From Hydrangea macrophylla (lineage: Eukaryota > Streptophyta > Magnoliopsida > Cornales > Hydrangeaceae), in the NCBI GenBank assembly GCA_033977485.1, contig CM066983.1:64962010-65026009 (forward strand): 64,000 bases of DNA, in the 5' to 3' direction. The notes under the pieces are model-generated. The model was not told the origin of the DNA. It saw only the letters and a list, made by a program, of their open reading frames with translations, and made no database searches. Position 1 is the stretch's first letter; every line of letters begins with the position of its first letter. Below, in pieces: positions 2,121 through 59,730 of the stretch. The translations under genes and the position numbers were made by a program.

Positions 2121-2412
2121 CTCGCGCCACGATCGCGCGAGCGGTCCGCGCGAGCGACCCGTCGCGCGAGCGGCCCGCGCGAGCGATCCTTGTTTCCCCA
2201 GGCAGACAGGAAAGTTTATATATATAAAATGAAATTTAGGCAGGTCGCGCGAGCGAGGGTCGCGCGAGAGACCTTTCGCGCGAGCGACTCGCGCGCGCGA
2301 CCTTGGCTTTTTCAGGCAGACAGAAAAGTTTATATATAAAATGAAAATTAGGCATATCGTGCGAGTGGCCCGCGCGAGCGGCCCATCGCGCGAGTGGCCT
2401 GCGCGCGCGACC
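2121..2412 (+). repeat. CpG-rich tandem array in LTR A (CGCGCGAGCG blocks)
   Basis: Three units of roughly 100-114 bp each combine several copies of CGCGCGAGCG with an A-rich spacer containing 'GGCAGACAG' and 'AAAGTTTATATA' (for example at 2201 and about 2315). GC content jumps sharply relative to the AT-rich LTR on either side. The short open frames here are only a by-product of the GC-rich repeat. Confidence 0.8.
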
Positions 2413-2796
2413 TCTGGCAGTTTCCAGTTTTGCTTGTTTCGTGATAAGGGACTGTTTGGGATAAAATTTATATACTGTTTGTGTACGGTTTGGGAAATTT
2501 ACTAAAGCAGAATCCTTTTTGGTTATGTTTAAATGATCAAAACAATGAATTGCGACTTATCAATCCCCGTACGTACATTGTTCCTTTAATTCAGTATTTT
2601 GCTTTATGTTTAAAGTTCATGTCATTCATGTGGGGTCAGTGGTACATGCATGTGGGTGTTAGTCAGTGTGGAAAAGAGTTCTGGTCAATGTGGAAAGAGT
2701 ATGAGATCGAGATTGAGATTGAGATTGCGGTGGTGGTTGTGGTTGAGATTGCGGTGGTGGTTGTGGTTGAGATTGCGGCGAGGGTATCTTTGAAAT

Positions 2797-3080
2797 GCGA
2801 CGGTGGCAAATAAGGACACTCCCTGACGCCCATGGTAGCGTTAAAGTGTGTGACGCCGAACTTGGACACTCCCTGGCACCCATGGTAGTGCTAAAGTGTG
2901 GCCTACGGACACTCCCTGATACCCGAGTTTGGATACTGCGTGAGGTTGCTCCGGTATTTGCAGGGCGGATTAGGTATTCAAAGTGTGAGGCAATGGACAC
3001 TCCCTGGTACCCCGGACCAAAGTGTGAGGCAAACTGGACACTCCCTGGCGCCCCGTTGCTAAAGTGTTGCTATCTTAGTG
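2797..3080 (+). repeat. LTR minisatellite, GGACACTCCCTGG...AAAGTGTG units
   Basis: About five imperfect units of 40-55 bp each contain GGACACTCCCTGG, then ACCC or GCCC, then AAAGTGTG. The ACACT and AGTGT parts are complementary, so each unit could form a small stem in RNA. The same array is present in the block at 575-820 and in LTR B at about 50625-50890, so it belongs to the LTR family. Confidence 0.75.
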
Positions 3081-3752
3081 TTTCAAAGATACTGGAGTAA
3101 GATAGTGGGTTGTTGTGTCTGTCGAGAGAAAAGAGTCGGCAAGATGAGTGTGGTGCATTGTCTCATACACGAACATATGCTTTTATGAATGAACGACTGT
3201 TAAGATATCCCTCGTTGTCTTATAAATTAAATTCTCTCTATGGTCAAACTATTGATTTTACAAATTGAAAATGGAAAAAGGTAAATGAGTATGTTTTACA
3301 TTTAAAGTTATGTTTTTAATACTCACCACCTTCTTGAAGCTGACGACGTTGATGCGTCCTGGACATTCGTGTTCAGGCTTTTCAGGTTATGATCAGGAAG
3401 GACCTTATGACTACGCTAACTGAGAATGGATGCCTTTGGAATGAGAAAACTGTTTATTGATTATATGCTTTAAGTTATATGTTTTAAGTTTTTAAACTGT
3501 TTGTTTTATAAGGATGACTGTAATAGACATTAAGTTATTATTTTGTTTCAAGGCGGTCTGTGCCTTTAGATGACCCCGTGCTGTAATATGTAATAAGTTA
3601 GAAAAATTTTATAAGCCTTGATTGCTCTGCTCTGATTATTGTTTATTGTTGTTCGACGTTTGGGACGGAATCGATCCTTCAAACTGTCGCGACCTACGGG
3701 TCCATAAAAAAAATTAAACGCTTTCCTTATTTATGCTATGTCGGGGCGTGAC

Positions 3753-4906
3753 ATACTTGCACTTCACACACACAATCGCACATGGGTTAAGTAACAGTTT
3801 ACACTTATATTATATACATTACAGCTATTGTATATATATATCCTAAAATTGTAACAGTCTGAGATTAGCTATAGTACACTTTTAAATCATATCTCATCTG
3901 GTCTATACATATATTTACACAGACATATATATATATATATGTATCTAAATATATACATACATATGTAGATACAAACTGAACTAATTAATTAATAAAATTA
4001 AAATAACTAACGATAAAATTATGTAACAACACCACAACAATTTTATGAAAATAAAATTTTTTTAAAAAATTCCCATGCATCGCACTGGTTTTGAATCTAG
4101 TATATTAAAAAAGTAGAGTTTAACGAGTCATTTTTCCAATCTCCAAAATTTTTACAGATTTTTCGCCATGTAATTTTGACTATCGTAAAAGCAATGAAAA
4201 TATCCAATAACAGCAATTATTTTTTTGCAAAATCAAATGCTACTTGTGTTAATAGCAGTCGCCTGATAATGGTGAAATTATTCCAATTATTTCATGTGAC
4301 TATCACACCGTGTAAATGTCACTCTGATCTTTTTATTACTGTTGGACTCATGTGGGATTCACAAAATACTCAAATCATAGTGAAAGTAATCACACAAGAT
4401 AATTTTGCCTCATAATGTAGAGTTAAAGCCTTAAATTCCTAATTTGATAAAATTAAAATTTAAACAATAACCAATACAAAGTTTGAATTGCTTTTTCATC
4501 CAATTTACATAAATCCAATATCGAGACCAAAGCGCTGTGTTGCCAACAAGTTCTATATTACATTTGTCAACGTAAAACTGGGGTCGTGAAATTGGAATTG
4601 CGCGAACTAGAAATAATCCAACGCGACTTTTAAGTCAAATCATTTCAAACTTCAAAACTCCAATTCCACATTGCCAATTCTTGATCTACTGTCCTAATTG
4701 TTGGTACATCTCAACATCATGTCTGAGAAGTCACATGAACTATCACTTGGTATGACGGTCATATAGAATAATTTTTTAAATGTAATTTTGTGTTTAAGTA
4801 TGGCAAACAGTACTAACTATAAGTGTACATACATAGTTTGCAGAGGTAGATATTATAGCAAAGTCCCTCAAAATCCTCTCATGTAAGGTATTGGCTTTCT
4901 TGGAGA
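3753..4906. other. AT-rich intergenic sequence
   Basis: There is no supported gene. It contains TA-rich simple sequence (3920-3960). A possible Helitron 3' terminus is listed separately at 4072-4100. Confidence 0.5.
4072..4100 (+). mobile_element. Possible Helitron 3' terminus (decayed hairpin plus CTAG)
   Basis: An imperfect palindrome around CCCATGCATCGCACTGG is followed about eight bases later by CTAG and then T. Plant Helitrons end in a short GC hairpin followed by CTRR inserted before T. The 5' end was not located, and the hairpin carries mismatches. Confidence 0.3.
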
Positions 4907-5011
4907 CAGTGGCGGATACAGGGGGTAGTGGCCACACCTAGCTTTTGGGAAAATACATTTTTATACATGTATTTTAGAAAAAAATTTAAAATTTATTAGG
5001 CTTGCACACCA

Positions 5012-5045
<34 letters not shown>

Positions 5046-5227
5046 ACCAAATAAGTAAATTTATTATATAGCCTCCCAAAAAAAAAAACCTTTACTATAT
5101 ATAATATATTGGCCTAATTACAAGTAGACCCAAAAGAATTTGCCTCGGAGGCACTCCCCCCAAACCCCCATATGACTCTAAGCTCTTATACACAGCCCCA
5201 TGGCCGAGATTCCTAGATCCGCCACTA
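4907..5227. mobile_element. Non-autonomous hAT-like element (MITE), 321 bp
   Basis: The terminal inverted repeats are CAGTGGCGGAT on the left and ATCCGCCACTA on the right. The flanks are CTTGGAGA and CTTTGAGA, an 8-bp target duplication with one mismatch, which fits the hAT superfamily. The interior is non-coding and contains a run of 30 C. Confidence 0.75.
5014..5043. repeat. Homopolymer run of 30 C
   Basis: Uninterrupted C from 5014 to 5043 inside the hAT-like element. The length may be inaccurate because such runs are prone to sequencing and assembly error. Confidence 0.85.
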
Positions 5228-5779
5228 CTTTGAGAACAACTAGCCAGCTTCTATTTGACAGTGGAAGTCCCTCGAAAACTTCTAGATTTCCATACTTCTT
5301 CTTGGAATCATGAATTTCTAACCCATGAAACATAATTATTGCCAATTATATATATTTTTTCCCTTTTTTTATAAAAAAGAGAGATTTTATTGATTGCCAC
5401 GCAAATTACATAACAAATATCACATCACAATATGTTGTATTGACAACTAAGTCAAAAAACTATCAAATCAAAAGATATCTTCTTGTAAACTAATATCAAA
5501 TCAAGCAATATCATATGCTAAAATATTGCCCTTCGTCTTAGAATGATGACTCGATATTGAGCAAAATAGGGAGTGAGCTGCTTGAGAGACCCACGAAAGA
5601 TATTGCTACAAAGCTCTCCAGATCTGCAAACAAACTCCAGCAAAACTCTATATCTGATGAAAAAACACAAGCTTAAATATGATATTGAAGACAACGCCTA
5701 ATCAACATGAGAAAACAAGAAATTACCAAATCTAAAAAGGTAATAAAGACGTAACCACGAAAAGGAGTAGCTAGATCTG
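5228..5779. other. Spacer with a possible decayed LINE tail on the minus strand
   Basis: No intact gene. A T-run at about 5360-5375, read on the minus strand, would be an A-rich tail. Upstream of it there are short minus-strand translations that weakly resemble the RNase H end of plant LINEs. The similarity is too weak to be firm. Confidence 0.2.
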
Positions 5780-6077
5780 TGTCATGCCCCAGAAACAATA
5801 AGGTGATCCCAGGTTACGTGGCACGCCATCAAGGCTTACCAACGGTGATTAAAGTTCCTGAAAAAGACATGATAAAAGTTTTGCTCCAAGAAAACCAACT
5901 TCCAAATAGTGTTTCAAAGGTTATTTAAAACATGTGCCCAAACACGCCTTATCGAGTTCCATTTTCAAAAGTAACATTTTCGTAGGTCAAAAGGTCCCCA
6001 AAGGTACCCCCAAGTCTAATTAGAAGTTGTTCTGAGCATTGGAAGAAGGAGTTCAAAGTTTCGTGCAGGGGGTATTT

Positions 6078-6115
6078 CGACCGGTCGAACTGCTCCATTC
6101 AACTCTGGGCAGAAC
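6078..6115. repeat. CpG palindrome TTCGACCGGTCGAA in LTR C
   Basis: TTCGACCGGTCGAA is a perfect 14-bp palindrome. The other LTR has a longer version at 12968-13005, with a second copy of the word and mutated variants. The words are followed by CTGGGCAGAAC in both LTRs. Confidence 0.7.
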
Positions 6116-7266
6116 CCAACCTCCAAAAGACCATATTCACAATTGCCAAAATTGTTTCGCAAACGCCGTTAATTACTGGAGCTTCCCTAATAAACGTCTT
6201 TAATTCCCGGCGGTTCCGCAACAAACGCCGCTAATAAATCAATGCCTATTTTACCAAAAGAAACCAATCCAAACAAAACCATTTCAACCAAACAATTTCA
6301 AAACAAGTCAATTCAAAATCTTTGTTAAACATTTTAAGGACTTGCAAAAACATACACACCATTTATACAACAACCACAAACTCCTCCCGGGTTACAAGTA
6401 CCAAAAGTTCAAGATTCACATGTCTCAACAAACTAGGTCCTAAGGTGAACCAAGTATTGTACTCGCATATATAACAAGTCTTATTACAAGCCGCACGGTT
6501 AAACAAACGGCATAAGTTAAACATATATTACAAACATGGTATAAGTTCTATAAACATAAGGACCTCCGGTCCTTCATTGCCTCATTACCCGCGATTCTCT
6601 CCTCCAGTCATTGCCCCTGAATGGTTATTTATATAATCACAAATATTTGAATTTGTTTAAGCTAACGCTTAGTGAATAATATCAATCAAGCACACGTATG
6701 ACAATTATGTTCCAATCCATCATAACATATAACTATTCGGTCTCTAGGGAATAAGTGCACATTCACCGATCCAAAGTCTTAAGACTTAATTCGCGTTAAT
6801 GCCTTTCTCGGCAAGTGACCATCGCCACTACTAATCCTCCCCCTTCAAAAGGACGTCTCACGGTGCATTGGTACAAATCCCCCTTTAACCCACATAGGCA
6901 CATAAACATGCCTAGTTAACACATATCTTCATACTTTTCATTTCAACATACCTTGGGCCTACTTTACACATGAGTTTTGCCCAATATGAACTACGCATGG
7001 TATATATATAAAGTCTCTAGCATATCAAATGCATTAAACAATAGAACCATCCGAAAATCGAGATTGATATCACTCACCTCAAATGATTTGCTTAAGAATG
7101 TGAAATAGAAGTTCACCTCTATACCGGGTTCGATTCCTACACAAATTTGGCCAATTTCGGATTATGTAGCCCTTACCTATACGCGTCCAAAATCGATTTC
7201 GTATTGAAGATTGAAGATTGTTTGCTACTCGAATCGTCGAGAAAACTACCAAAGTTCAAGAACTCT

Positions 7267-7270
<4 letters not shown>

Positions 7271-7308
<38 letters not shown>
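7271..7308. repeat. (CT)n microsatellite
   Basis: About 19 uninterrupted CT units inside the 3' LTR of element C. The corresponding place in the other LTR (about 14153-14200) holds a shorter CT run followed by a TA run. Confidence 0.95.
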
Positions 7309-7312
<4 letters not shown>

Positions 7313-7885
7313 ATATCTATGATATATTGAAGAAGAGAAGAATGAGTCTTCTCTTTCTCTCTCCTCTATATAATATCTAAACCCTATTATGGGTATTTCT
7401 AGTGAAACCCCCCCCACTAGTTTTGGTTCATTTTAATTACACCCACGCTAATTATTAAACAAACTAGTTAACTACCCAAAAGTATATTTGAGTATTCATC
7501 CAAGTCCCATGTAGGTCCCACATATAAATTCCACAAAGTTACTAATTAGCCTACTAATTTTTCAACGTGTCCAATTTCATCCTCACCAGGCATCTAATGA
7601 CCCCAATGAGTCGCTATCAATAATGTAATAATCAATTATATTCAAACATGCCTTAATAAAATATTTAAGCACAGAATTATGAGTTATTACTAATTTTCCC
7701 AACCGTAGGGAATTCTCACATGTCCAACTTTTGGACTGCTTTCAAGGCCAAATACTGGGTTCTGAAAAGACACCCCAAACAACTAGTGAGTCATCACTGA
7801 CTTCACAAGTGCTAATTAACACAACAATGAGCATACCATGCATACTAAAATAATATAATTAAATACCATGAGAGCGTGTATGACA

Positions 7886-7898
7886 TCCTCTCTCCCTT
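7886..7898 (-). other. Polypurine tract of element C
   Basis: On the minus strand AAGGGAGAGAGGA lies immediately before the 3' LTR, the expected place for the plus-strand primer of an LTR retrotransposon. Confidence 0.75.
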
Positions 7899-8553: not shown

Positions 8554-8559
8554 CCCAAT

Positions 8560-12668: not shown

Positions 12669-12680
12669 GCACTGATACCA
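12669..12680 (-). other. Primer binding site of element C (tRNA-iMet type)
   Basis: The minus strand reads TGGTATCAGTGC, which differs by one base from the usual TGGTATCAGAGC. It starts five bases after the 5' LTR end. Confidence 0.85.
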
Positions 12681-22743: not shown

Positions 22744-23410
22744 TGTCACGCCCCGGAGTAGCATAAATAGAGAAAAATAAATTTCCTTTATGGGTCCATA
22801 GGGAATGACAAGTGAAAGTCACTGATAATCCACACCACACAGTACTAGTCCAAACAGGAACAGTAAAACAACTGAAATATAAACACGGTTCTATCTATTA
22901 CAAACATCAGAGTACGGTCCACAGGATCACAACAGGTCTGGAGACAACATATGCCCAAGTACCCGTTAACTACAAAGTACAACAGTAAAAGGAAAAGTAG
23001 TAATATAACTACTATCTATCTTCAGGTCTTCAGCTAGCGTACGGATAGGCGTCAGCATAACTGGCATCAGTGGGGCCATTCTCTACCTAACTCCCTTCAG
23101 GGTAATCGTTATCGCCATGAGTTCCGTCATCTGCATTGTAAAGGACAGGATAGTCTGGACGGGGAATGTCCAGGCAATAAAGGCCGTCAGCTTGTTGAAA
23201 GCTGAGTGAGCACTAACTAACACAGTCTCATAGAAATGACATAATTACCATTATGAACGATATATGACAGTGATACTAAATATATATATTCCTCACTCGT
23301 TTATTCAGATATATCATTAATCGATTATTATCAACTCCCATTCTAAGACTGATTTCACAATACCCAACTGACTATCTCGAACTGATTATATCAGCACAAC
23401 ATACCAGTGC

Positions 23411-23671
23411 TCTTGTTCACCGCTATACCGCTTTTAAGAACTCTTGCGAGCACCCATACATTGTTCTCATATAACGACTGGTCTATGGATATACCCATAC
23501 TCTTGTTCACCGCTTTTAAGAACTCTTACTGTTCACCGCTGTTAAGAACGCTTGCGAGTACGATACATACACAGCTCTGGTAAATATAAATCATGGATGT
23601 GCCACAATTACTCTTGTTCACCGCTTTTAAGAACTCTTACTGTTCACCGCTTTTAAGAACGCTTGCGAGTA
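23411..23671 (+). repeat. Repeated hairpin motif GTTCACCGCTTTTAAGAAC in solo LTR G
   Basis: Five copies of a ~19-bp unit begin GTTC and end GAAC, so each is an inverted repeat. They are followed by CTCTT or GCTTGCGAGTAC. Two copies are arranged back-to-back twice (about 23505-23560 and 23614-23670). Confidence 0.8.
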
Positions 23672-24029
23672 CTGTGCACCCATAATTCTCACGATCCTGA
23701 TCAAATCCTTGACATACACTTATCGGATTTAACCTGAGCGAATCATCAGCTCGACACACACAACTTTGAACATACAATCCTCTTACTGACTCATTTCTCA
23801 CTTATCCAATACTACCCAATATTATCATTCAAACTTACTCGTTATCGCGTCGTACTATTACTAGCGTTTCGAACCCGACTACGTTACTCACCATGTTATC
23901 TCAATCTCGTTATCGTATCCCATTACCTCCGTAATCCATAGTATCGCATAATAGGAATATGGAACAACAATTAAACAACTACGCATTATGAATTAAAAAC
24001 TGAAAGGAATACATTCATGTTCTGCTAGG

Positions 24030-24235
24030 TTCGATCGATTGAGGTCATCTCGATCGCTCGAAGAAAGTGTTGTTCGATCGATTGAAGTCATCTCGATCGA
24101 TCGAAGTGAAGGTAGTCTCGATCGATTGAAGTATTCTCGATCGATTGAACTCAGGGAGGTTCGATCGATTGGACTCAGTTCGATCGATTGGGGCTCTGAT
24201 GTTCGATCGATTGAACTCAGTTCGATCGATTGAAC
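24030..24235. repeat. Cluster of TTCGATCGATTGAA palindromes in solo LTR G (part 1)
   Basis: About ten copies of TCGATCGATTGA and close variants lie in about 205 bp, spaced 15-25 bp apart. The consensus is close to the perfect palindrome TTCGATCGATCGAA. The spacers vary, so this is not a simple tandem repeat. Confidence 0.85.
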
Positions 24236-24740: not shown

Positions 24741-24932
24741 CTCGATCGATCGAAGGATGCTCGATCGATCGAACTCAGATCGGTCAGTTAGATCGATTGA
24801 AAAAAAGGTTTGATCGATTGAAGTGGGGACCACGTATTAAATTTATGTCGGTAGGGTTTCGATCGCTCGAAAAGGGTTCGATCGCTTGAACTGAAGGGTC
24901 TCGATCGCTCGAACTAGCTTCGATCGATCGAA
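24741..24932. repeat. Cluster of TTCGATCGATCGAA palindromes in solo LTR G (part 2)
   Basis: About eight further copies, several of them perfect (CTCGATCGATCGAA at 24741 and 24761). It is separated from part 1 by about 500 bp that include a CT-rich tract and a TA microsatellite (about 24519-24590). Confidence 0.85.
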
Positions 24933-39982: not shown

Positions 39983-41007
39983 TGTCACGACCCATCCCGC
40001 GCACGCGCGGAAATAGGACACATGACACGCCACCAAGATTCATCCAATTCCATTAAAGTAAAATAGCAGCGGAAAACATGAGCACAATTCTTTAAAATCA
40101 GAGTTATAAAAAGTTTTGCCCAATCAAAACACTTCCAAAGAATCCATTTTGAAGAACAGAGGTCCAGTCGACTGTGGTGGTTCCCTAGTTGACTGGAGAT
40201 CCAAAGCAGAAGGTTTTAAAAGTTCAACAGCCCCATCCAGTTGACTGTGTCGGGGACTCAGTCGATTGGGGCCTCAATTGTTCAGTCGACTGGTACCTCT
40301 TTCGGTCGGCTGAACATCTCTAGTAGAATGTCATGTTTTCGTGCAGAAACCAGTCGACTTTCATTAAAAATAGGGGTCCAGTCGACTATGTCGGGGACCA
40401 GTCGACTGATAGCTCTCAAAATTGCACAATTCTGTAGCATTACAGACCAAGGTTTCTCCAATTCAATTCGACATGAACACAACCACATTTTAACATATTG
40501 AAACATAATATATAGAAGTTCTATTACAAATTTTAAGATCTCGAACCTATGCCAAGATTCTATTTCAACATATTACAATTCCCAAATTCTTATTACAAGT
40601 TGGAAGAAAACAAAAGTATAAAAAAGCTTTCCCCGACATTCCTCGGCCTCACTCCTCACGCTTATTCTTTCCTCTTTTCTTTTCACCTGCAATGGAGTAA
40701 ATCTCCACTGCTCAGCTGTATACTGAGTGTACAATTCTAAATATATGTTTATATGACAATTCATGTTTAAAACATCTAAAACATATCAAAATAGTCTCTA
40801 AGGTGAGTGGTACGCATTCATTCGGTAAATGGAATCGATGTCGTGAAAGGCATACCTCTCCATCGCATCCCGTACATTGGTTGGGCCTTTCTCTATACCA
40901 GACACAACCACAATCAATATCACAATCCTCAAGGTTCGAGGAGCTTAACCCCAGATGAATTTGCACCAAACTCCCCTTTGACCCAAGTAGACACATAATA
41001 TGCTCGC
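39983..41007 (-). mobile_element. LTR of chromovirus-like element D, part 1
   Basis: It starts TGTCACGACCC and includes 'ACACGCCACCAAGATTC', which is similar to element C's LTR start ('CACGCCATCAAGGCTT'). It is interrupted at 41008 by solo LTR F1 and continues at 44220. Joined, the LTR would be about 2.06 kb, close to the LTR size of element C. The sense strand is minus. Confidence 0.7.
40163..40410. repeat. Cluster of CCAGTCGACTGG palindromes in LTR D
   Basis: About nine copies of the word CAGTCGACTG and variants lie in about 250 bp, with irregular spacing. Perfect CAGTCGACTG occurs at 40164, 40283 and 40398. Some variants differ by a C-to-T or G-to-A change at the CpG (AGTTGACTG, AGTCGATTG). 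Confidence 0.8.
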
Positions 41008-41342: not shown

Positions 41343-41875
41343 AAAATCATCCGAATTCGTCCAAAAGTTCCGAGATCATCCAAGATCATGTGAAAAGTCT
41401 TAAAATATGTTTTAAAATAAAATCGAACAGAAACGTCAGTCTTTGGAGGCTCCCAGAACTTCCCGAAATTTCCTAGAAGTGCATTGTTTGACTGATTTGA
41501 CTGCAAGTTTAACCAAAAATCAAAGTCTCCTTTTTGATGTTGAAATATTTTTATCAAATACTAGAGGTCAATAGCTTTCCAACGGTATGTCGCACATAGT
41601 TTTTGGATCTAAAACGAATTTGTTATGAATTTCTAAAGGTGAAAAATGCGATCAATTCAGCTTTTATCGCGAATACCGAAAAACTTTCCAAAGTGACCCA
41701 ACTCCAAATTATTTTTTATGGAAATTAGATCTCAATACCTTTCCAACGGTATATCACAATCTCAATTTGGATTTCGTATGAATTTTCTGTGAATTTCGGA
41801 CGAAATAGGGCCATTTCGCGAATTTCGGGAGTTCTGGGGGCCAAAATGCAAATTCTGGTCAACGGGAGGGTTGAC

Positions 41876-41935
41876 TGCCACGGTGGCACTGGCCCACTGT
41901 TGCGGCGGCAGTGGCCAAGTGCCGCGGCGGCACTC
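41876..41935. repeat. GC-rich palindromic cluster GTGCCGCGGCGGCAC in LTR F1
   Basis: Three units of type TGCCRCGGYGGCA with TGGCCC spacers lie in about 60 bp. The corresponding cluster in F2 is at 46825-46886 with different base details. Confidence 0.75.
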
Positions 41936-46824: not shown

Positions 46825-46886
46825 CAGTGCCGCCGTGGCACTGGCCCAATGCCGTCGCAGCACAGGCCCAGTGCCGCCGCGGCACT
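46825..46886. repeat. GC-rich palindromic cluster AGTGCCGCCGCGGCACT in LTR F2
   Basis: Three units (CAGTGCCGCCGTGGCACTGG, then a decayed unit, then CAGTGCCGCCGCGGCACT) lie in about 60 bp. The palindromes differ in detail from F1 while the surrounding LTR aligns well. Confidence 0.75.
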
Positions 46887-49489: not shown

Positions 49490-51139
49490 ATCACCATAGC
49501 AAAACTCCAAGTGGATTTATTATTTGGTCTTTCCTTCTCAACACATATCTCAAAACACAATCACAGTGAGTATTATTAACTCACTTCTAATGTAATTCAT
49601 ACCTTATTTACTGTTCATATGGCTTGGTTTGAAAATCTCCATTGTTTTTTTACGTTTGGACCTCCATAGCTTTGAAATCAAGAATTTTCAAACTTGACCA
49701 AAATCCATTTTTAGATACGATTATGAAAGATTGTACATCATAGATGATATGTTTAAAGTATTAGGGCTTAATTTACTCAATTGAGAAAGTATATTAAGAT
49801 TGAAGTTTTGTCATCTTTTAGTTTTTCGTAAAATTCGTGAACTACGTTTGGATTCAAGTAAAATTGATTGTAGATTCATAATCCTTGCGAAAAACCGAAG
49901 AGATTCATATATTATAAGGCATGGTAACTTACGGAATCAAAAATAGGTCAAAAGACCCCTTAATTTTTGAAACAAGAGAAAACCAGCGAGGTAGATGAAG
50001 TCACTGCGTGAACTCGCACGCTCAATCGCGCGAGCGGCCCACGCGCGCGAGCCGTGTGGTTTCAAGCAGATAGAAAAGGTCTTAATAAGCAAAAATGAAA
50101 ATTGGGCATATCGCACGAGCGGACTGCGCGAACGACCCGCGCGAGCGATCCGCGCGCACGATCTTCCTGTGTTCTGGCAGTTTGGAAAGTTTTATAAAAG
50201 AAAACGAAAAATGGGCATTTCGTGCGAGCGAACCGCGCGAGCGACCCTCACGCGAGCGGCCCGCGCGTGCGACCTCTAACAGTTTCTAGTTTTTGCTTAT
50301 TTCATGTTAAGGAACTGTTTGGGTGATGTATTTGAACTTTAAGGCCCTGTTTGCGAAAATTGTTTAAAACAGTTTATGTTTTTGAGTATGATTGGTCATT
50401 AAGGAAGGATTATGAATTCAATTCTTTTCAAGCATACATTGTTATTATTCCTAGCACTTCATATGTTCTATGGATAGCTACATAACATTCATATGAAGTC
50501 AGTTGGGCATGTATGGGAGTAGTAGTCAGTACAGAAAAGAGTAATGATCGGTGTGGTTGAGATTGTGTTGTGGTTTGAGATTGTGATGTGGTTTGAGATT
50601 GCGGCTAGAGTATCTTGTAATGCGACGGTGGCAAAAATTGGACACTCCCTGGTATGGTAGCGCTAAAGTGTGTGACGCCAAACTTGGATATTTCCTGGCA
50701 CCTATGGTAGTGCTAAAGTGTGGCCTACGGACACTCCCTGGTACCCGAGTCTGGATACTGTGTGAGATTTCCTCCGGTATTTGTGAGGCAGATTAGGTAC
50801 TAAAGTGTGAGGCATTGGACACTCCCTGGTACCCAGACCAAAGTGTGAGGCAAACTGGACATTCCCTGGCACCCTTGTGTTAAAGTGTGGTTATCGGAGT
50901 ATTACAAGGATACTGGTGTGAGAGTTGTTGTGTTTGTCGAGAGAAAAGTGTCAGTAAGATGAGAGGGTGCATTGCTTTTCATACACGGTCACATATATGT
51001 GAATTATAGCTTTCAAATGATATCGTGGTGGTTTTCTAAAATGAACTCTTTACTCTAATGTAAACTTGTTAAATTAAATGGGAATTTGAAAAGGTAAATG
51101 AGTAAATGTTACATTCAAAGTTATGTTTTTAATACTCAC
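49260..51139 (+). mobile_element. 5' LTR of element B, part 2
   Basis: It is collinear with LTR A: leader-like region, GA microsatellite (about 49447-49486), CpG-rich array (50014-50274) and 'GGACACTCCC' minisatellite (about 50625-50890). It ends with AATACTCAC, where element E is inserted. Confidence 0.85.
50014..50274 (+). repeat. CpG-rich tandem array in LTR B (CGCGCGAGCG blocks)
   Basis: Three GC-rich blocks are separated by A-rich spacers ('AAAATGAAAATTGGGCATATC', 'AAACGAAAAATGGGCATTTC'), matching the 2121-2412 array of LTR A unit by unit. Several CpG sites have decayed to CA or TG. Confidence 0.8.
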
Positions 51140-52510
51140 TGATGTTGTCAATATCAAGATATAAAAGTATTCTCTACTTTTCAAAAGATTTGCAGTGTGG
51201 AAGTAAAGGTCGAACCCACAGAGATTGATTAACTACCGCGCTTTAATTTTAAAACCTAAATCTAATTAATTATGAAAAACGGATTTTGATTTGAATTTAA
51301 TTAAACTAATAACAATAAAACTAAATCTAAACTATGAAAGCAATTAAAAGTGTTTTAAATAATGTTTAAGGGAACCTAGGATTGCAAACCCACCACTAGC
51401 TTTATAATAGGAATATTTATGAATTACTTTAGCTTATTAAGTTGGATGATAATGGGGAATTGTAGCTACAAGCCCAATTCCTCCGACAAGAAGATATTCA
51501 TGGTTCAAGCACCAACATAATCCATCTTCGGTTAGCACGAATTATCCCACACTAAACTAGGGTTGTGATCTAATCCGTCTAACCTAGGCATGGACTATTC
51601 GGATACTTGATAGCACAAATCAATAAAGCACCATCACATGTAAACAATCTAAACAAGCACAGCAAGAATAGATCGTTGAGCACATCACAGTCAAAATAGA
51701 TCTAAGACAAGAATAAATTCTGAAAGTAATGATTTAATCAATAGAAGTACGATTTATTTATAAAAATCCTCTAAACATGTGACTGTCATCCATACATAAT
51801 AAAACTAAAATAAAAACATAAATAACACCCTATTACTCGTCTAGGGCTTCATTGAAACCCTAGATCTATGATCTAGCCGTCCATGGAAGTGATGGATGGC
51901 AAGTAGTTGATGGAGGAGGCCATGGAAACCCTTGGTCTTCTTCTTCTTCTCCTTGCTTCCCTCCCTTCAATGGCTGGAAGTATGTGTGTATATTCATTGC
52001 TAATAATGTCTAACAATGTCTAACCCTTTTATTGTAATAAAATAGAGTATATATAGATTTACAACAAGTTTTGGAAGCCTTCCCAACCCGAAACGAACTG
52101 AAACTGATGTAATTTACAGTCTAGACGTCGTTCAGCAGTTTCGTTTGCACAGGAGTCTTCAGTATACTGAAATACGCAACTTTGGTTTTTACACATATCG
52201 CGCGAGCGGGTCGCGCGAGCGCGACAATTGGGACCTCGCGCGCGCGGATCGCGCGAGCGATTCTGGGACTTTCGCGCGAGCGGATCGCGCGAGCGATAAC
52301 TGGTTTTCCGCGCCCGCGGGTCGCGCGCGCGACTTGGCTTTTTTAGCTTCTTTTCTTCTGCTTTTTCACCCTGTTTAGCCTGGTTTAGGTCATTTCTTCC
52401 AAAACCTGTCAGAAAATAGAAAACGAAGTAAAAATATACAAAAACAGGATAAAAAGGAACTAACAGATGCTCGTTAAGGCGTATAAATAGGATTTGTTCT
52501 CTCCCGATCA
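51140..52510 (-). repeat. 3' LTR of element E (1371 bp)
   Basis: On the plus strand it starts TGATGTTGTC and ends CTCCCGATCA. It is 13 bp longer than the other LTR, because the CpG-rich segment holds one more 'GGGTCGCGCGAGC' unit. Confidence 0.95.
52198..52332. repeat. CpG-rich palindromic cluster in the LTR of element E
   Basis: About nine CGCGCGAGCG or CGCGCGCG words lie in 135 bp, ending in CGCGCGCGACTTGG. The matching cluster in the other LTR is at 59431-59552, shorter by one unit. A further cluster of the same words lies inside the element at 54680-54890. Confidence 0.85.
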
Positions 52511-52523
52511 CACCCCCAAACCT
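52511..52523 (-). other. Polypurine tract of element E
   Basis: The minus strand reads AGGTTTGGGGGTG immediately before the 3' LTR start TGATCGG. Confidence 0.8.
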
Positions 52524-55100
52524 ACATTTTGCTAGTCCTCGAGCAAAACTAAAATAAAAACTAACTACTAATACCATACTATTCCATTTTCGCATAGATC
52601 ACGATTGCATTTAGCGTATGCAACAAGCCTTTTAAACCTCTAGGTGTCCCTAGTCGGACGAGTAAAGTCTCGTGAGGGTTCTCATCAACAAGTCACCCAC
52701 AACCATATTTATTAACTTAGAAATTTAAAAAGTTTTATTAAAACTAACGAACATAATATTCAACACTCCTTATTATAACACAATGATTTGAAATAGCATA
52801 ACGAACAAGAAGAAACGGAATCAAACGTCTACCTACATTATGAGAAACAATCAAGCGCATGCAATGTACTAATCAATAGAGTTCCTCATAAGATTGCACG
52901 TGTGTGATGTGGTAGTCAAATGAACACGCGTATGTCATCAACATGGAATATAACTCGGATAACCATTTAACTATGTCTCGACTACGAATCTCACAATGAA
53001 TTACACTTTCAAATGAAACACTCAGAAACAGGTGTAATTTATCTAGTATATGGGAGCAAAGAAATATATTTTCAAAACGATAAATGCTCACATATGACTC
53101 GAAAAAGACGCATGACACAAAAGAATAATAGTCTCATGGATAAGATGCCAATAATCAAGACAAATTAATCCTTACCATGTTTTAATCCCCCTCCCGTCGT
53201 TTTCATATCCGAACCATGTCTCCTAGGATCAAATAGGACTTTTCAAAGGTTATAACGTGGCTCAGGCAATGAAAAAGGATAGAAAGGATTTATCAAATAG
53301 TTTCAGAATGGCATTGTAAGGCATGTTCGATTTCTTTCATTCTTCTTCTCTACCAACTTTCATCTTTTCTTTCTCTTCATTCCTTTTCATTCATTTTTTT
53401 CAACCTTCTTCTTTTTATTTTTCAATATATTTCTCTTCTCCTTTTCCTTTTCCTTTTCTTGCTTCTCAAATGATTATTCATCGAATACCAAGCAACTACC
53501 CCAATAGCATCTTATTTTCTTCTTCCTTTTCAACACATCACCTTAACACTACTAAAAGGTGACAAATCTCTCAGTGGTGAACTCCGAGTTTGTCAAGTCG
53601 GAGCAAAAACAAGGATAATGGTAATCAAAGAAAGAAATGGCATTTTAACGGCTCAAAGGGCAAACTAAGGAAATTTTATAATTTATCGGTCGACAATAAA
53701 CAAAGAGGGCCTAAAATCATTTCCTAGGGTAATACGGTTCTTCAATGTTTACGACGGAAGATTATTTAGCATGGTAACAAATATTTTAACTTGACTATCA
53801 ACCAAAACAAGAATAATGAGACTAAACAACGAGTTGATGCGCTATTTCAATGAAATTCGACAAACACAAGATGTATTTATAACCCTCAAAACAGAAAAGA
53901 TAGGCTCAAATGCTTACTGGGTCTAGTCTCCACCATATGTTATCTAGAAATCCGAATCATATTATAGTTCACAACCAACATGTATTCAAGCGACTACGTG
54001 CAGTGCATAAGTTTATGTGCAAATCTATGATATAAAACTACGATTCAAACAATACATAACTTAAAACGTTACATCATAACTTCAGCAAATGTTTAATCAC
54101 ATCTTCTTTTGTTTATCACTCTATAACAATCATAGTTACATAATAAGAAGTATCAATTGAGATTGCAAAAACCGTAGGTAACATCGTTTATTTAAACATA
54201 CTTATTGAAAATTTTCAAAATTTCGCATAAAATAATGTGCATGTGTGTGCATACCCCCAAACCTAAACCTTTCATTGTCCCCAATGAAACAATAAAATGA
54301 AAGAAAGGAGAGTACGTAAGAAAGGAACGATAGTACCTTAGTTTCGGCAATGACAAACAGGTAAATGTATAAGAATATGGCGATAAAGTTCAATTGCTCC
54401 AAATGGAACCACCTGTTAATACTAGATAAAAAGAAACTAACAAAAGAATATTAAAAGTAAATGAAACCTAAATATGGAATATAAATCTAAAAACTAAGCT
54501 AAACTAAACTAAACAAGCAAATGGAAAAGAAATAAAACGAAAAAGTATAAATGTAACAAGGAAAACAACGAACACGAACTAAACTGAACCAAATAAACAA
54601 AAACAGAAAAGGAACACAAATAAAATAGATAGGGGGAAGGATATAGAAAACAAAACGGAAAAAACAGGAAAAGGGGAAATCGCGCGAGCGGTCCGCGCGA
54701 GCGGCCGTCGCGCGCGCGAATTCCCAATATTTTTTTTTTCGCGCCCGCGAGCTACCTCGCGCCCGCGACATCAGGCGCGAGGAGAACCTGAGGGCTCATA
54801 TAAAGAAAACGAAAGAAAAAACACTAAGGCACATTCTCGCGCCAGCGGGCCGCGCGAGCGACGTATCGCGCGAGCGGGTTGCGTGCGCGATTTGGGTGTT
54901 TTCCATTTTTTAGCTAAAATTATGTATATAATATTGAAATAAATTAATTCCAACCCCCAAACCTGTCCAGAATGTCCAAAACAGACTCAAACAGACTCAA
55001 AAACGACCAAAAATAAGAAAAACGAACGAAATAAAGCTTGGGTTGCCTCCCAAGAAGCGCTAACTTTTACGTCTTCAGCTAGACCGTTCTAGCTCAAGAC
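52524..55100 (-). other. Non-coding internal region of element E where pol would be expected
   Basis: No RT, RNase H or integrase motif is found on either strand. It contains 'GGGTTGCCTCCCAAGAAGCG' (about 55040, plus strand), which I associate with non-coding regions of plant gypsy elements, and a CpG-rich cluster at 54680-54890. Short open frames here are compositional. Confidence 0.65.
54680..54890. repeat. CpG-rich palindromic cluster inside element E
   Basis: Repeated TCGCGCGAGCGG and CGCGCCCGCGA words occur in two groups, separated by about 60 bp of A-rich sequence. It uses the same vocabulary as the cluster in the element's LTRs. Confidence 0.8.
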
Positions 55101-56771
55101 TTACGGAGGCTGTAACTCGGATTTTGTACCCCTAAGGATGTCAGGTAGAGCTCGGTGGTAAGCAGAAATCACGTCACTTCGAATTAATTCAATCGAAGGT
55201 TTGTCAGTATGTTCAAATTGATTTCTTACCTTTCGAGTAGATTCAGCATTAGGGTCCAGATTATTAGGGTCCATCCACTCATCATCCGCTACATCTTTGT
55301 CGTTACTCACATTTATTGCTTTGTTAGGCTCAATATTCCGTCTTACCTCACCTTCCGCCTCACATAGGTAATCGTCATCTTTAGGAGGTTGATCAATAGC
55401 ATTAAAAACGTTTAATTTTAAGTTCATGTTCCCAAACGACACTTTCATTACCCCCATCCGGCAGTTGACACGTGCGTTAGCTGTGGCTAAGAATGGACGG
55501 CCTAGAATGACAGGAGTGTGTTTCCTAGCATCTAGCACGGGTTCAGTGTCAAGGACCATGAAGTCTACAGGATAATAGCATTTATCAACCTTAACCAAGA
55601 CGTCCTCGACGATTCCTCTAGGTATTTTAATAGAACGATCCGCTAATTGTATTGTAGCGGCCGTAGGTTTCAGTTCACCTAGACCTAGTTGTTTATAGAC
55701 GTGATAAGGTAAGAGGTTAACACTAGCTCCTAAGTCAAGGAGAGCCCTCTGGATGATAGTGTCACCTATGACACATGAAATCGTTGGCGTACCAGGATCC
55801 TTATACTTTGGAGGTGAGTGTTGAAAAATAGAACTTACTTTTTCCGTGAGGAAGACCTTTTTCGGAGTATGACTACGTATTTTGCGCTTTTGTGTACAAA
55901 GGTCTTTTAGACATTTAGCATAAGCGGGAATTTGTTTAATAGCATCGAGGAATGGAATATTGATTTTAACTTGTTTAAATACCTCGAGTATATCCTCAAC
56001 CTTAGACTTTTTATTTGTAAGATTAGACGGCTCCTCAACATTAGGTGGATATGGCATTCTCGGAATATAATTCGTTGAGACCGGTTCATTTTCTTTTCTA
56101 CTTTGATTCACGTCCTCACCCCTCTCTTTATTAGAGTTGATATTCATATCTATCACATTCTCATTCTTATTAGGGGTTTCTATCACCTCCTCTCGTGTAG
56201 TCATCCTAGTTGAGACGGCGTTTACTTGTTCATTCGACCCCTTAACCTCATATTGTCCCTTAGGGTTTTGAATTGTTTGACTAGGCAACGTCCCCTTGTT
56301 TCTACGACTCACTACAATAGCTAGTTGTCCCATTTGGGATTCAAGCTTCGCAATGGATTGTGTATGAGAGTGCACTATTTGTGCTTGTGCCTGTACTTGC
56401 GTTTCAATTTTATTAAGGGATGCCAACACCTTTTCCTCAAAAATGTTACCCCTTGAAGGATTCGAATTAGGAGGCGGGTGTTGGTATTGACTAGGTTGAA
56501 ACTGAGGTCGATACGCATTTGGAAAATTAGTTGCCTCATTAGGATTATTATTATTTTTTTTCCACGAGAAGTTAGGATGGTTTCTCCATGGCGCATCCGG
56601 ATTATTAGTAGTCGAATTATAATTATTTCGTGGGTATTGTTGAATAGAGTTAATGTGTTGCTCCACGAATTTCGGAAATTGACTCGCCGATGGACATGCA
56701 AGTATCGAATGTGAAGGATCAGAACATAATGCACAAATTTCACGAGCGGGTGAGGCTGTCGTTTGGTTCAT
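55101..56771 (-). CDS. Gag C-terminus and aspartic protease of element E
   Basis: This 556-residue frame begins near a zinc knuckle, CALCSDPSHSILAC (about residues 15-28, C-x2-C-x4-H-x4-C). It continues through a Pro/Asn-rich linker and reaches a retropepsin-like domain at about residues 340-460. That domain contains ALLDLGASVNLLP (active site as D-L-G, usual for this family as I recall it), LADRSIKIPRGIVEDVLVKV and VILGRPFLATANARVNCRMG. The tail after KPSIE diverges from longer relatives and stops, with no RT following. It is in the same frame as the gag piece upstream, separated from it by one TAA and 16 codons, so the ATG at 56771 is probably not a true start. The long intact frame supports recent activity. 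Confidence 0.85.
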   Translation of the reverse strand: MNQTTASPAREICALCSDPSHSILACPSASQFPKFVEQHINSIQQYPRNNYNSTTNNPDAPWRNHPNFSWKKNNNNPNEATNFPNAYRPQFQPSQYQHPPPNSNPSRGNIFEEKVLASLNKIETQVQAQAQIVHSHTQSIAKLESQMGQLAIVVSRRNKGTLPSQTIQNPKGQYEVKGSNEQVNAVSTRMTTREEVIETPNKNENVIDMNINSNKERGEDVNQSRKENEPVSTNYIPRMPYPPNVEEPSNLTNKKSKVEDILEVFKQVKINIPFLDAIKQIPAYAKCLKDLCTQKRKIRSHTPKKVFLTEKVSSIFQHSPPKYKDPGTPTISCVIGDTIIQRALLDLGASVNLLPYHVYKQLGLGELKPTAATIQLADRSIKIPRGIVEDVLVKVDKCYYPVDFMVLDTEPVLDARKHTPVILGRPFLATANARVNCRMGVMKVSFGNMNLKLNVFNAIDQPPKDDDYLCEAEGEVRRNIEPNKAINVSNDKDVADDEWMDPNNLDPNAESTRKVRNQFEHTDKPSIELIRSDVISAYHRALPDILRGTKSELQPP

Positions 56772-56819
56772 TGTTAAAAGTCGGTCAAGTTTGTTAGATA
56801 GTTCTTTTACTTCAATTGA

Positions 56820-57803
56820 TTAGCTTGACTCGAACTTTACCTCCCTCTTAGGTTGTGGGTATCCCTCAGAACGGACAGACACCGCTTGGTGCATCGAATT
56901 CTCGCTTAACGTTTCAAAAATTTTCCAGGCCTCATCGGCACTTTTGTGTAGGAAGGTACCCGCACAAACAGCATCGACGGTGTTACGGACCGAAGGAATA
57001 AGTCCCTCGTAAAAAACCTGGACCAACTGCCACTTAGGAACCTGATGATGTGGACACGAACGTAACAATTCTTTAAATTTTTCCCATGTGTCGTAGAGCA
57101 ATTCCCCATCTTGCATCACAAAGTTTGTTATAGATTTTCTTATCTGATTCGTACGCATAATCGGGAAAAACTTTTGTAAAAATGCGGTGTGTAAGTCTTC
57201 CCATGTTCTAATTGTGTTTGGCTCCAAAGATTGAAGCCAATATTTAGCTTTATCTTTTAAAGAGAATGGAAAGAGCCGCAATTTTAATTCATCATCAGTT
57301 AAGTTTTGAATTTTCAAAGTAGAGCATATATCTTGAAAATCTCCTAAGTGTTTATATGGATCTTCATTTAAACGGCCATGGAACGATGGAAGTAGCGAGA
57401 TGGTAGACGACTTTATCTCAAAGTGAGATGCCGTCGCCTCCGGTAAGTCGATACAAGTTTGTGGCGTGTAAGTCGTAGGAATAAAATAGTCTTTAAGTGG
57501 AGGAGGAGGTGGTATATTAGGATTATTCAAATTATTTTCGTTGTTATTTTGGTTGTTTTCGTTATTATTTCCAATGTCTGCCATTTTAATCGGTTCTATG
57601 TTATGAAAGCGTGGTTTCTTTAGTCTTGTAAGAGTACTACGTATTTCAGATTCAAATAAAGACGTTGGTTTTGGTGTCAAATCGTCGTCTATTAAAAACC
57701 GAGCTCTAGAAGTTAAGTTTGAAGACTTGTTAAGTCTTAATGTACGTTCAATTTCAGAGTCGAAAGGTTGTAATTCCGGTTTATTTGAACGTGTACCTAA
57801 CAT
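56820..57803 (-). CDS. Gag capsid region of element E
   Basis: A 327-residue frame starting MLGTRSNKPELQPF. A low-complexity Asn-rich segment is followed by the Retrotrans_gag-type core (about residues 120-310) with FHGRLNEDPYKHLGDF, LRLFPFSLKDKAKYWL, WEDLHTAFLQKFFP and VQVFYEGLIPSVRNTVDA. The protein would form the particle for element RNA. It ends at a TAA (plus-strand 56820-56822) and the same frame then continues into the zinc knuckle and protease. The stop is therefore a point mutation in this copy or a leaky stop that sets the Gag to Gag-Pro ratio. Confidence 0.85.
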   Translation of the reverse strand: MLGTRSNKPELQPFDSEIERTLRLNKSSNLTSRARFLIDDDLTPKPTSLFESEIRSTLTRLKKPRFHNIEPIKMADIGNNNENNQNNNENNLNNPNIPPPPPLKDYFIPTTYTPQTCIDLPEATASHFEIKSSTISLLPSFHGRLNEDPYKHLGDFQDICSTLKIQNLTDDELKLRLFPFSLKDKAKYWLQSLEPNTIRTWEDLHTAFLQKFFPIMRTNQIRKSITNFVMQDGELLYDTWEKFKELLRSCPHHQVPKWQLVQVFYEGLIPSVRNTVDAVCAGTFLHKSADEAWKIFETLSENSMHQAVSVRSEGYPQPKREVKFESS

Positions 57804-58267
57804 AAACTAAAATAAAGTAAACTAAAAACAAAAACTGACTCAACTAAAAAAACAAATAGCAATCACGCAACTAAGATAACAAGCACTCAACTACTGTGAT
57901 GCATGAATATTATCCTGTAATGCAATGACCGCGTCAAGCCCAGTGCCCCGGGTTTCCTAGCTAATGCAGTGCAATTAACCCTAAACTAATGCAAATAGTG
58001 CGTCACAGCGCCCTGACTTATAGTGGTTTAAAGCGAGTTTCACAAGAAGCAATTTATTTTATTTTATTTATATTTTTATTTGCGTAAGCTCCTTTGATGT
58101 AATTAGCTACTCCACTCGAAAACGTTGGAATTTGATGACTCTAGAAACTACAGAATAAAAAGAAAAGTTAGTGACTCAAAATAAAACGAAAAATAAAAAA
58201 AATAAAAACTAACCTAATATTTACGAATCAACTAAACTAAGATTATAAAACTAAAGGTAGTAATGCA

Positions 58268-58292
58268 ATCCCCGGCAACGGCGCCAAAAATT
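58268..58292 (-). repeat. Second, distal copy of the tRNA-Asp primer binding site of element E
   Basis: The 25 bases ATCCCCGGCAAC followed by GGCGCCAAAAATT (plus strand) repeat exactly 81 bp further on at 58349-58373. The repeat includes the 5-nt spacer and one base of the LTR edge, so the copy came from a sequence already joined to the LTR. Confidence 0.85.
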
Positions 58293-58367
58293 CCACCACT
58301 AGCATAGTGGTAAGTATTCCCGCCTGTCACGCGGGTGACCCGGGTTCGATCCCCGGCAACGGCGCCA
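58293..58367 (+). tRNA. tRNA-Asp(GTC)-like sequence captured at the primer site of element E (pseudogene)
   Basis: The plus strand carries an almost complete tRNA-Asp. The anticodon stem CCCGC/GCGGG (58319-58323 and 58331-58335) encloses loop CTGTCAC with anticodon GTC at 58326-58328. The T arm is CCGGG-TTCGATC-CCCGG (58340-58356). The acceptor 3' strand is CAACGGC (58357-58363), then G and CCA (58365-58367). The A box TAGCATAGTGG (58300-58310) and B box GGTTCGATCC (58343-58352) are intact. The 5' acceptor strand is CCACCAC, which does not pair with CAACGGC, and CCA is encoded. So this is a copied tRNA, not a normal nuclear tRNA gene. Its 3' end is the primer binding site of element E, five bases from the LTR. 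Confidence 0.85.
58349..58367 (-). other. LTR-proximal primer binding site of element E (tRNA-Asp)
   Basis: The minus strand reads TGGCGCCGTTGCCGGGGAT, complementary to the 3' end of tRNA-Asp. It lies five bases from the 5' LTR end. Confidence 0.9.
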
Positions 58368-58372
58368 AAAAT

Positions 58373-59730
58373 TGATGTTGTCAATATCAAGATATAAAAG
58401 TATTCTCTACTTTTCAAAAGATTTGCAGTGTGGAAGTAAAGGTCGAACCCACAGAGATTGATTAACTACCGCGCTTTAATTTTAAAACCTAAATCTAATT
58501 AATTATGAAAAACGGATTTTGATTTGAATTTAATTAAACTAATAACAATAAAACTAAATCTAAACTATGAAAGCAATTAAAAGTGTTTTAAATAATGTTT
58601 AAGGGAACCTAGGATTGCAAACCCACCACTAGCTTTATAATAGGAATATTTATGAATTACTTTAGCTTGTTAAGTTGGATGATAATGGGGAATTGTAGCT
58701 ACAAGCCCAATTCCTCCGACAAGAAGATATTCATGGTTCAAGCACCAACATAATCCATCTTCGGTTAGCACGAATTATCCCACACTAAACTAGGGTTGTG
58801 ATTTAATCCGTCTAACCTAGGCATGGACTATTCGGATACTTGATAGCACAAATCAATAAAGCACCATCACATGTAAACAATCTAAACAAGCACAGCAAGA
58901 ATAGATCGTTGAGCACATCACAGTCAAAATAGATCTAAGACAAGAATAAATTCTGAAAGTAATGATTTAATCAATAGAAGTACGATTTATTTATAAAAAT
59001 CCTCTAAACATGTGACTGTCATCCATACATAATAAAACTAAAATAAAAACATAAATAACACCCTATTACTCGTCTAGGGCTTCATTGAAACCCTAGATCT
59101 ATGATCTAGCCGTCCATGGAAGTGATGGATGGCAAGTAGTTGATGGAGGAGGCCATGGAAACCCTTGGTCTTCTTCTTCTTCTCCTTGCTTCCCTCCCTT
59201 CAATGGCTGGAAGTATGTGTATATATTCATTGCTAATAATGTCTAACAATGTCTAACCCTTTTATTGTAATAAAATAGGGTATATATAGATTTACAACAA
59301 GTTTTGGAAGCCTTCCTAACCCGAAACGAACTGAAACTGATGTAATTTACAGTCTAGACGTCGTTCAGCAGTTTTGTTTGCACAGGAGTCTTCTGTATAC
59401 TGAAATACGCAACTTTGGTTTTTACATATATCGCGCGAGCGCGACAATTGGGACCTCGCGCGCGCGGATCGCGCGAGCGATTCTGGGACTTTCGCGCGAG
59501 CGGATCGCGCGAGCGATAACTGGATTTCCGCGCCCGCGGGTCGTGCGCGCGACTTGGCTTTTTCAGCTTCTTTTCTTCTGCTTTTTCACCCTGTTTAGCC
59601 TGGTTTAGGTAATTTCTTCCAAAACCTGTTAGAAAATAGAAAACGAAGTAAAAATATACAAAAACAGGATAAAAAGGAACTAACAGATGCTCGTTAAGGC
59701 GTATAAATAGGATTTGTTCTCTCCCGATCA
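58373..59730 (-). repeat. 5' LTR of element E (1358 bp)
   Basis: It is nearly identical to 51140-52510. It ends CTCCCGATCA and is followed by the CTCAC duplication. Confidence 0.95.

Follow-up and report, generated by a model that had tools for sequence, protein, structure and literature searches.

What do the clusters of short CpG palindromes in plant retrotransposons do, and does each family have its own? The question is raised by a 64-kb stretch of the Hydrangea macrophylla genome (contig CM066983.1; G000:C2:64962010-65026009), hereafter the window, in which a first-pass annotation described such clusters in six families of long terminal repeats (LTRs), lettered A/B to G, and suggested that they may be binding sites, methylation targets or stem-loops by which RNAs of the same family recognise each other. 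We find that the five main words fit a single scheme, that words cross the boundary between retrotransposon superfamilies, and that four of the five are commonly set in doublets 19-22 bp apart. On the basis of these data, the arrays are probably, with a likelihood that we put at about 0.6, dyad-symmetric sites for one or more dimeric host DNA-binding proteins, linked to the promoter and turning over fast; binding sites would then be the one of the three initial guesses that survives.

A common scheme and its carriers

The core of word 1 (CGATCGATCG), word 2 (CAATCGATTG), word 3 (CAGTCGACTG), word 4 (CGCGCGAGCG) and word 5 (CGACCGGTCG) all fit CRNNCGNNYG, which has a central CpG and ends in CG or in the CA/TG that transitions make of it. 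The change that separates word 1 from word 2 is matched in the two halves. Together with the sharing of words between superfamilies described below, the common scheme contradicts the initial view that the words differ completely and are specific to families.

The window was inspected by a search for perfect palindromes, by CpG density, by self-comparison and by direct reading, and 19 arbitrary loci of 10 kb (190 kb) served as a comparison set. Eighteen clusters were found in these 254 kb, eight in the window and ten in the arbitrary loci, compared with none in three Markov-1 simulations per sequence. The CpG palindromes of the arbitrary loci are likewise in excess, with 13 of 14 bases where 1.6 are expected, 25 of 12 bases (7.3 expected) and 59 of 10 bases (25 expected). 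Within the window, CGCGCGAGCG has 23 matches, with none in 100 shuffles, CRATCGATYG has 12 against a shuffle mean of 0.11, and CAGTCGACTG with at most one mismatch has eight, seven of them in D, against a mean of 0.57. By these scans and shuffles and by the genome-wide counts, the clusters reported in A, B, D, E and G are real. Five of the ten clusters in the arbitrary loci consist of words 1 and 2 (one in L002, two each in L008 and L015) and five of other words; two of the latter were viewed, in L001 and L003. At L003:7300-7800, GATCGGCATGACGTGTTCGG-like repeated units form a CpG-rich array outside the CRNNCGNNYG scheme.

Genome-wide (2.22 Gb in 19 contigs), exact matches were counted, with the same pattern reversed as control. 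Word 1 occurs 101,717 times as TTCGATCGATCGAA (control, 8) and 169,636 times as its core (1,067), and word 2, which does not occur in the window, 189,157 times (1,095). The hybrid of the two, CGATCGATTG, was found 47,726 + 46,600 times (517 + 489), so that, with the hybrid included, words 1 and 2 account for more than 450,000 exact cores. Word 3 as CCAGTCGACTGG has 14,039 matches (30), word 4 as TCGCGCGAGCGA 17,070 + 17,303 (5 + 7) and word 5 13,597 (1,832, a 7.4-fold excess). Two further palindromes give the scale: a Vitis motif, CGGTCGACCG, was counted 1,199 times against 305, and an arbitrary one, CATGCGCATG, 713 times against 107 (6.7-fold), its listed places being scattered, so that palindromes of the form CRNNCGNNYG in general exceed their reversed controls some 4-7-fold. 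From independent halves, about 358,000 hybrids of words 1 and 2 would be expected and 94,326 are seen (26%). A simple series of CpG decay leading from word 1 to word 2 was considered and rejected on account of this shortage and of word 2 arrays that are nearly exact. In the first ~1.3 Mb of contig C1, word places recur at an offset of about 503,600 bases (for example 98,378 and 601,984), and an inverted recurrence seems to follow near 1.02-1.27 Mb; the pattern resembles a large duplication or an artefact of assembly.

To follow the words through element families, we used 40 word-bearing loci, 37 of which were chosen for carrying words, these 37 all coming from the first 14 Mb of one contig; lineage names are inferred, without a reverse transcriptase (RT) tree. 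Word 1 occurs in three groups: Sirevirus-like Copia elements, Gypsy elements without a detected chromodomain and chromovirus-like Gypsy elements. The Copia family (L008, L020, L023, L027) has a copia-type gag in L008 and the Sirevirus 5' junction CA/ATTGG/TATCAGAGC as an exact 16-mer in L008, L023 and L027; L020 lacks the exact 16-mer and has a match to a Met primer binding site (PBS), with at most one mismatch, at 995. L002 is a related LTR (91% over 1,496 bp) that looks solo. The Sirevirus polypurine tract AGGGGGAG followed by AT/TG was found in none of 55 loci, none of which is known to include the 3' junction of the Copia family, and the polyC-rich integrase signal near the 3' end of the LTR has no counterpart as a C-run in L008, the one member read. 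Within L008, positions 5156-5668 form a plastid-like Ycf2 stretch in nuclear sequence.

The second group is of the Gypsy type and is here termed E-like after element E of the window (L024, L041, L026, L021 and L029). L024 overlaps the end of L041, which has a Gypsy pol with no SH3_Tf2-1 or chromodomain match in the four of its nine listed open reading frames (ORFs) that were scanned, and in L026 an L024-like sequence abuts an L021-like LTR. The third group includes G of the window. Its relative L015 has a pol with Gypsy RT, RNase H, integrase and SH3_Tf2-1 (94.7 bits) and a Chromo match of 16.5 bits, under the curated 25.1. Under relaxed scoring, the alignment of G with L015 spans 1,937 columns at 62.9%; G carries word 1 and the hybrid, and L015 word 2, of which 16 copies are exact and one more has a mismatch.

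The remaining words are carried by several groups as well. Word 4 is carried by A/B and their relatives L048 and L051-L055, and it is also found in E, which is of another lineage, with its relatives L047 and L049, and in L050, which matched no other locus. Word 3 is carried by D and its relatives L030, L031 and L034-L039, and by L032 and L033, which match only each other. The word 5 carriers L056 and L058 match the LTRs of L034 and L036, and L058 also matches C over 90 bp. In or beside the word-bearing C, E, A/B, L015 and L041 lie Gypsy-type domains (gag, RT, RNase H, integrase or SH3_Tf2-1); in C, the one integrase-end ORF scanned matched SH3_Tf2-1 and, weakly, Integrase_p58_C, but not Chromo. 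Element E (51140-59731) has gag and protease matches on the minus strand; no RT was seen in a scan of 10 of the 30 listed window ORFs, and the element may be non-autonomous. Beside its LTR, a minus-strand PBS pattern occurs at 58356 and 58275 (58275-58368), which we take to be of the Asp type and presumably a link to Athila/Tat. For the tRNA-Asp-like look of this stretch, ARAGORN reported no tRNA gene in 58200-58420.

Spacing, conservation and turnover

Start-to-start gaps below 80 bp favour a few values. Word 1 copies lie 19 bp apart in 28 of 50 gaps in the Copia arrays (16 bp in 8, 25 bp in 7), in 23 of 46 in the E-like group (25 bp in 11) and in 8 of 16 in G, and the L024 group has 18-19 bp in 11 of 19. 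For word 2, 38 of 65 gaps measure 19-21 bp and 18 measure 24-25 bp; for word 3, 36 of 78 measure 20-21 bp, 9 measure 24 bp and 20 measure 50-53 bp; for word 5, 7 of 10 from four loci measure 21-22 bp. Doublets are thus mostly spaced by 19 bp (word 1), 20 bp (word 2), 20-21 bp (word 3) and 22 bp (word 5), and words 1 and 2 often follow a 44-45-bp lattice in which 19-20 bp alternate with 25 bp. Together with the boxes of F (22 bp), these distances come to about two turns of DNA at any word length; because the doublets keep to 19-22 bp despite words of 10-14 bp, it is the distance between centres, not the length of the loop, that is roughly constant. The spacers, described at first as irregular, are so in their sequence, which is hardly conserved, but not in their spacing, which is regular. 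Words 1-3 are present in at least 8 copies in most loci (L032 and L033 have six copies of word 3 each and L037 seven), and the word 5 loci have 2-4 each.

Conservation is concentrated in the words. Their positions hold 0.5-2.0 bits, most of them more than 1.3, a figure inflated by the choice of words for their similarity, and the 14 flanking positions on each side, which include pieces of neighbouring words, hold mostly 0.0-0.6 bits, with a maximum of 1.1. The unoriented loci L032 and L033 were left out of this set, as they were from the covariation and G:U/A:C sets discussed below.

The rapid turnover that had been proposed is supported. The two LTRs of E, 98.1% identical, differ by a 13-bp word unit, and homologous LTRs can carry different words: G has the word 1 type and L015 word 2, and L059, which has word 5, matches the word 3 LTR of L035 at 86% over 420 bp on one side and at 76% over 105 bp on the other, so that the flanks align on both sides, with no alignment reported across the array. 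Where closely related LTRs hold different words at one and the same position, the best reading is that words have been replaced in place.

Arrays in the window and TATA-like boxes

The arrays of the window are collected in Table 1. The direction of transcription was taken from several sources: a Met-tRNA PBS at 60163 that follows the end of LTR B; the gag match and presumed Asp-type PBS of E; homology with L015 for G; the PBS positions in the relatives L030, L031 and L035 for D; gag, SH3_Tf2-1/integrase and a PBS at 12669 for C; and, for F, solely the TATA-like box.

Table 1. Palindromic arrays and boxes of the window, in window coordinates
Feature	Position	Strand	Remark
LTR A, word 4 array (CGCGCGAGCG)	2121..2413	+	sense by homology with B
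C, single word 5, TTCGACCGGTCGAA	6076..6089	-	left LTR
G, downstream word 1 array, mostly hybrid CGATCGATTG (+ strand)	24030..24234	-	
G, upstream (U3) word 1 array, TTCGATCGATCGAA and variants	24741..24932	-	TATA-like box 61 nt downstream in - sense
LTR D, word 3 array (CCAGTCGACTGG and variants)	40164..40409	-	near LTR 3' end
F1, triplet of GC-rich palindromic boxes (17 bp each, at 22-bp spacing)	41874..41934	+	TATA-like box 152 nt downstream
F2, triplet of GC-rich palindromic boxes (17 bp each, at 22-bp spacing)	46826..46886	+	
LTR B, word 4 array	50014..50273	+	element E interrupts LTR B
E, left (3') LTR, word 4 array	52198..52333	-	TATA-like box 142 nt downstream in - sense
E, internal (third) word 4 array	54680..54890	-	between gag/protease ORFs and 3' LTR; missed by the first-pass annotation
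E, right (5') LTR, word 4 array	59431..59552	-	lacks one 13-bp unit of left LTR

Most of the individual arrays agree with their first description. The same word 4 is present in the blocks of A and B, many copies in A forming doublets 13 bp apart (2133/2146, 2162/2175, 2276/2289 and others), and in both LTRs of E; the approximately 18 copies claimed for G correspond to 18 near-copies of TTCGATCGATCGAA (at most three mismatches) in two arrays; D has about nine CAGTCGACTG-like words; and the boxes of F1 and F2 do differ between the copies, as had been stated. The count of six clustered families has to be revised: A/B, D, E and G are clustered, but in C the left LTR holds just one word and the right LTR no intact word 5, only CGTTCGACCG (12989), and F has three boxes per copy and lies outside the scheme, with no CRNNCGNNYG in either F1 or F2. 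Further GCTCTTAAAAGCGGTGAGC-type repeats can be recognised by eye downstream of the arrays in the homologous LTRs of G (23400-23680) and L015 (6440-6770).

TATAWA follows within 160 nt of the last word in 15 of 18 arrays chosen as arrays of the U3 (unique 3') region of the LTR, as compared with 17% of 4,000 random 160-nt stretches; these 18 are not mutually independent, the orientation of F derives from the box itself, and L021, L025, L028 and L029 were first oriented by the box, which is circular for this test. L021 and L029 share, strand for strand, a stretch upstream of the 3' LTR of E, whose sense comes from gag. Within families, the distance from the last word to the box is nearly fixed: 61-65 nt in L015, L043, L045, L046 and G, 69-70 nt in L021, L025, L028 and L029, 22-23 nt in L002, L008 and L020, 142 nt in both E LTRs and 152 nt in F1. 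Second arrays lie downstream, within the LTR in G, L015 and the L021 group, and those of the Copia elements L008, L020, L023 and L027 occupy the leader beyond the PBS (in L020, the PBS is at 995 and words begin at 1163). The words of D and C near the 3' end of the LTR, and the A/B array, which comes after a GA-rich stretch that precedes it in B, also point to a downstream position.

Possible roles and known systems

If the arrays are protein-binding sites, a host DNA-binding protein would occupy each 10-14-bp word of the CRNNCGNNYG form as a dimer, and a doublet spanning about two helical turns would set two dimers on one face of the DNA, with doublets repeating, often after a further 25 bp. 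The role of enhancer would fall to the U3 array in front of the TATA box, while the second array, farther downstream in the LTR or in the leader, would add to activation or counteract silencing. Dependence on one host protein would make unrelated elements converge on one word, and a family would switch words on moving to another member of the protein family or on escaping a repressor. A broader proposal, which we advance tentatively and at somewhat less than even odds, is a promoter code common to plant LTRs, in which one dimeric host protein family reads CRNNCGNNYG doublets and both superfamilies converge on its words and switch between them; if so, the arrays would be among the largest sets of binding sites in the genome. 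Should unrelated elements indeed rely on the same words and spacing, a large share of retrotransposon transcription in a large plant genome may be under the control of one host protein family. This bears on the question of what host factors activate plant LTR promoters and on the competition between elements and host over them.

Several observations weigh against the binding-site reading. Word 4 is an imperfect palindrome with other spacing, commonly 13, 15-16, 23-25 and 36 bp. The picked loci come from one stretch of a contig, and copies of the same family are not independent. The excess of word 5 over its control is hardly above that of the arbitrary palindrome, so that the case for this word rests on its doublets and its higher number: it outnumbers CATGCGCATG by a factor of 19, and in the first 50 places of its listing 10 of the 15 gaps below 100 bp are exactly 22 bp. 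The shortage of hybrids, which otherwise counts in favour of the binding-site reading, may partly reflect family structure. Finally, a TATA-like box is missing within 300 nt in L047 and F2 and comes only at 229 nt in L049, and several arrays (A/B, D, C and the downstream array of G), which stand outside the 18-array test, are not upstream of a TATA box.

The sharing of words might alternatively reflect descent, an ancestral array having been carried from LTR to LTR across the Copia-Gypsy divide, whether by recombination or by nested insertion. In favour of such an exchange, the Copia and non-chromovirus Gypsy groups share their spacing too (19 and 25 bp), but when the spacers of word 1 doublets are compared between the Copia, E-like and G groups, their agreement is 0.18-0.35 against 0.23-0.29 in shuffles, and since this is about the shuffled level, no recent transfer of a module is seen. 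The top value, 0.35 for E-like against reverse-complemented G, does lie above its own shuffle (0.23), and an old exchange may have been erased by turnover; all told, we regard this origin as unlikely.

Similarly improbable, and argued here by analogy, are anti-silencing arrays like those read by VANC proteins in Arabidopsis VANDAL elements, in which words grown by tandem repetition would recruit a silencing-removing protein encoded by the host or borrowed from one family. According to PMC5735166, the likeness lies in a short motif dense in non-coding parts, in units that diverge together and are gained and lost by concerted turnover of tandem repeats, and in word variants between subfamilies. 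VANDAL elements are DNA transposons, however, their motifs are family-specific and in one orientation, and the binding protein is encoded by the element, whereas the words described here are palindromic and shared across superfamilies.

A role in RNA, as word-loop-word hairpins or through pairing between transcripts of the same family for dimerisation or packaging, is quite unlikely. Transcripts of the arrays do fold better than shuffles (L045:400-610, z -6.1, 0 of 200 as good; the downstream array of G, z -3.0, 1 of 200), and the Copia arrays are present also in the leader after the PBS, but the same would hold for any collection of palindromes. Covariation was not detected in 31, 23, 8 and 36 doublets of four groups, the fraction of shuffles at least as paired being 0.21, 0.09, 0.67 and 0.96; L022, L024 and the first part of L026 were omitted from this test and included in the following count. 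On the sense strand, G:U does not exceed A:C (54 against 62, off the word edges, in 248 words), and G of the window alone has 0 G:U and 14 A:C, a bias that perhaps comes from the copying of one hybrid word. A bias towards G:U-compatible variants on the plus strand, seen while the orientations of G and D were wrong, vanished once sense was taken from coding regions, PBS and homology. Moreover, a constant centre distance rather than loop length does not favour hairpins, and words common to unrelated families cannot serve family-specific recognition, so that the self-recognition first proposed is not supported. Because the two pairing tests are negative and palindromes always fold well, we prefer recognition at the level of DNA, with moderate confidence given a small sample of related copies. 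Neutral, minisatellite-like expansion, in which a tandem repeat grew in each LTR and its spacers diverged around a functionless word, would account for the 13-bp indel between the E LTRs and the 44-45-bp period of words 1 and 2, but is very unlikely in view of words that stay far better conserved than their flanks, though as CpG-rich sequence they should decay fastest, and of unrelated superfamilies with the same word and doublet spacing and dissimilar spacers.

Clusters of this kind have already been described, so the statement that no description of them is known does not hold. In Bousios et al. (2010, PMC2829016), the LTRs of 13 Sireviruses have CpG-rich clusters of palindromic repeated motifs (RM), mostly with a word of their own, in at least 8 and at most 32 copies, one region of them preceding the TATA box and another lying elsewhere; the RM form CpG islands with divergent flanks, have a CGG-CCG core except in Tnd-1, and are called Sirevirus-specific and missing in classic Copia elements. 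By inspection, none of words 1-5 has the CGG-CCG core. As given in the same source, the motif of tobacco Tnd-1, ACAATCGATTGT, contains word 2 exactly, a match that may be due to chance (estimated at about 5%, with a handful of words on either side), and the Vitis motif CGGTCGACCG and the Usier core CGGACGTCCG fit CRNNCGNNYG. The presence of the same 10-mer in Tnd-1 suggests that the protein that would read it is perhaps old in flowering plants. In maize Sireviruses, which are Copia elements, the LTR palindromes lie in a fast-evolving, palindrome-rich regulatory region, comparable to the arrays described here, and are hotspots of small RNAs (Bousios et al. 2016, as cited in PMC5311732 and PMC10760457). 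The maize Sirevirus palindrome is also the commonest motif in structured regions of Helitrons, according to PMC10760457, which gives one precedent for sharing across types of element.

In the open-licence literature searched, no paper among the matches listed reports one word common to Copia and Gypsy LTRs, the word 1 14-mer had no match, four words gave no retrotransposon title among the matches listed, and 'palindrom' had no match in PMC4524691; besides the Sirevirus papers, the matches included one on palindromes as targets of insertion (PMC6911290). By this literature, the sharing of words across superfamilies, shared spacing and replacement of words in place are apparently new. The differences from the Sirevirus RM are that RM are reported in Ty1/copia elements only whereas the carriers here are mostly Ty3/gypsy, and that in Hydrangea one word is used across superfamilies, with a common doublet of 19-22 bp and words replaced in place. 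The phenomenon is real, strong and of a known kind, and it is wider than described, which counts against such palindromes being a peculiarity of Sireviruses.

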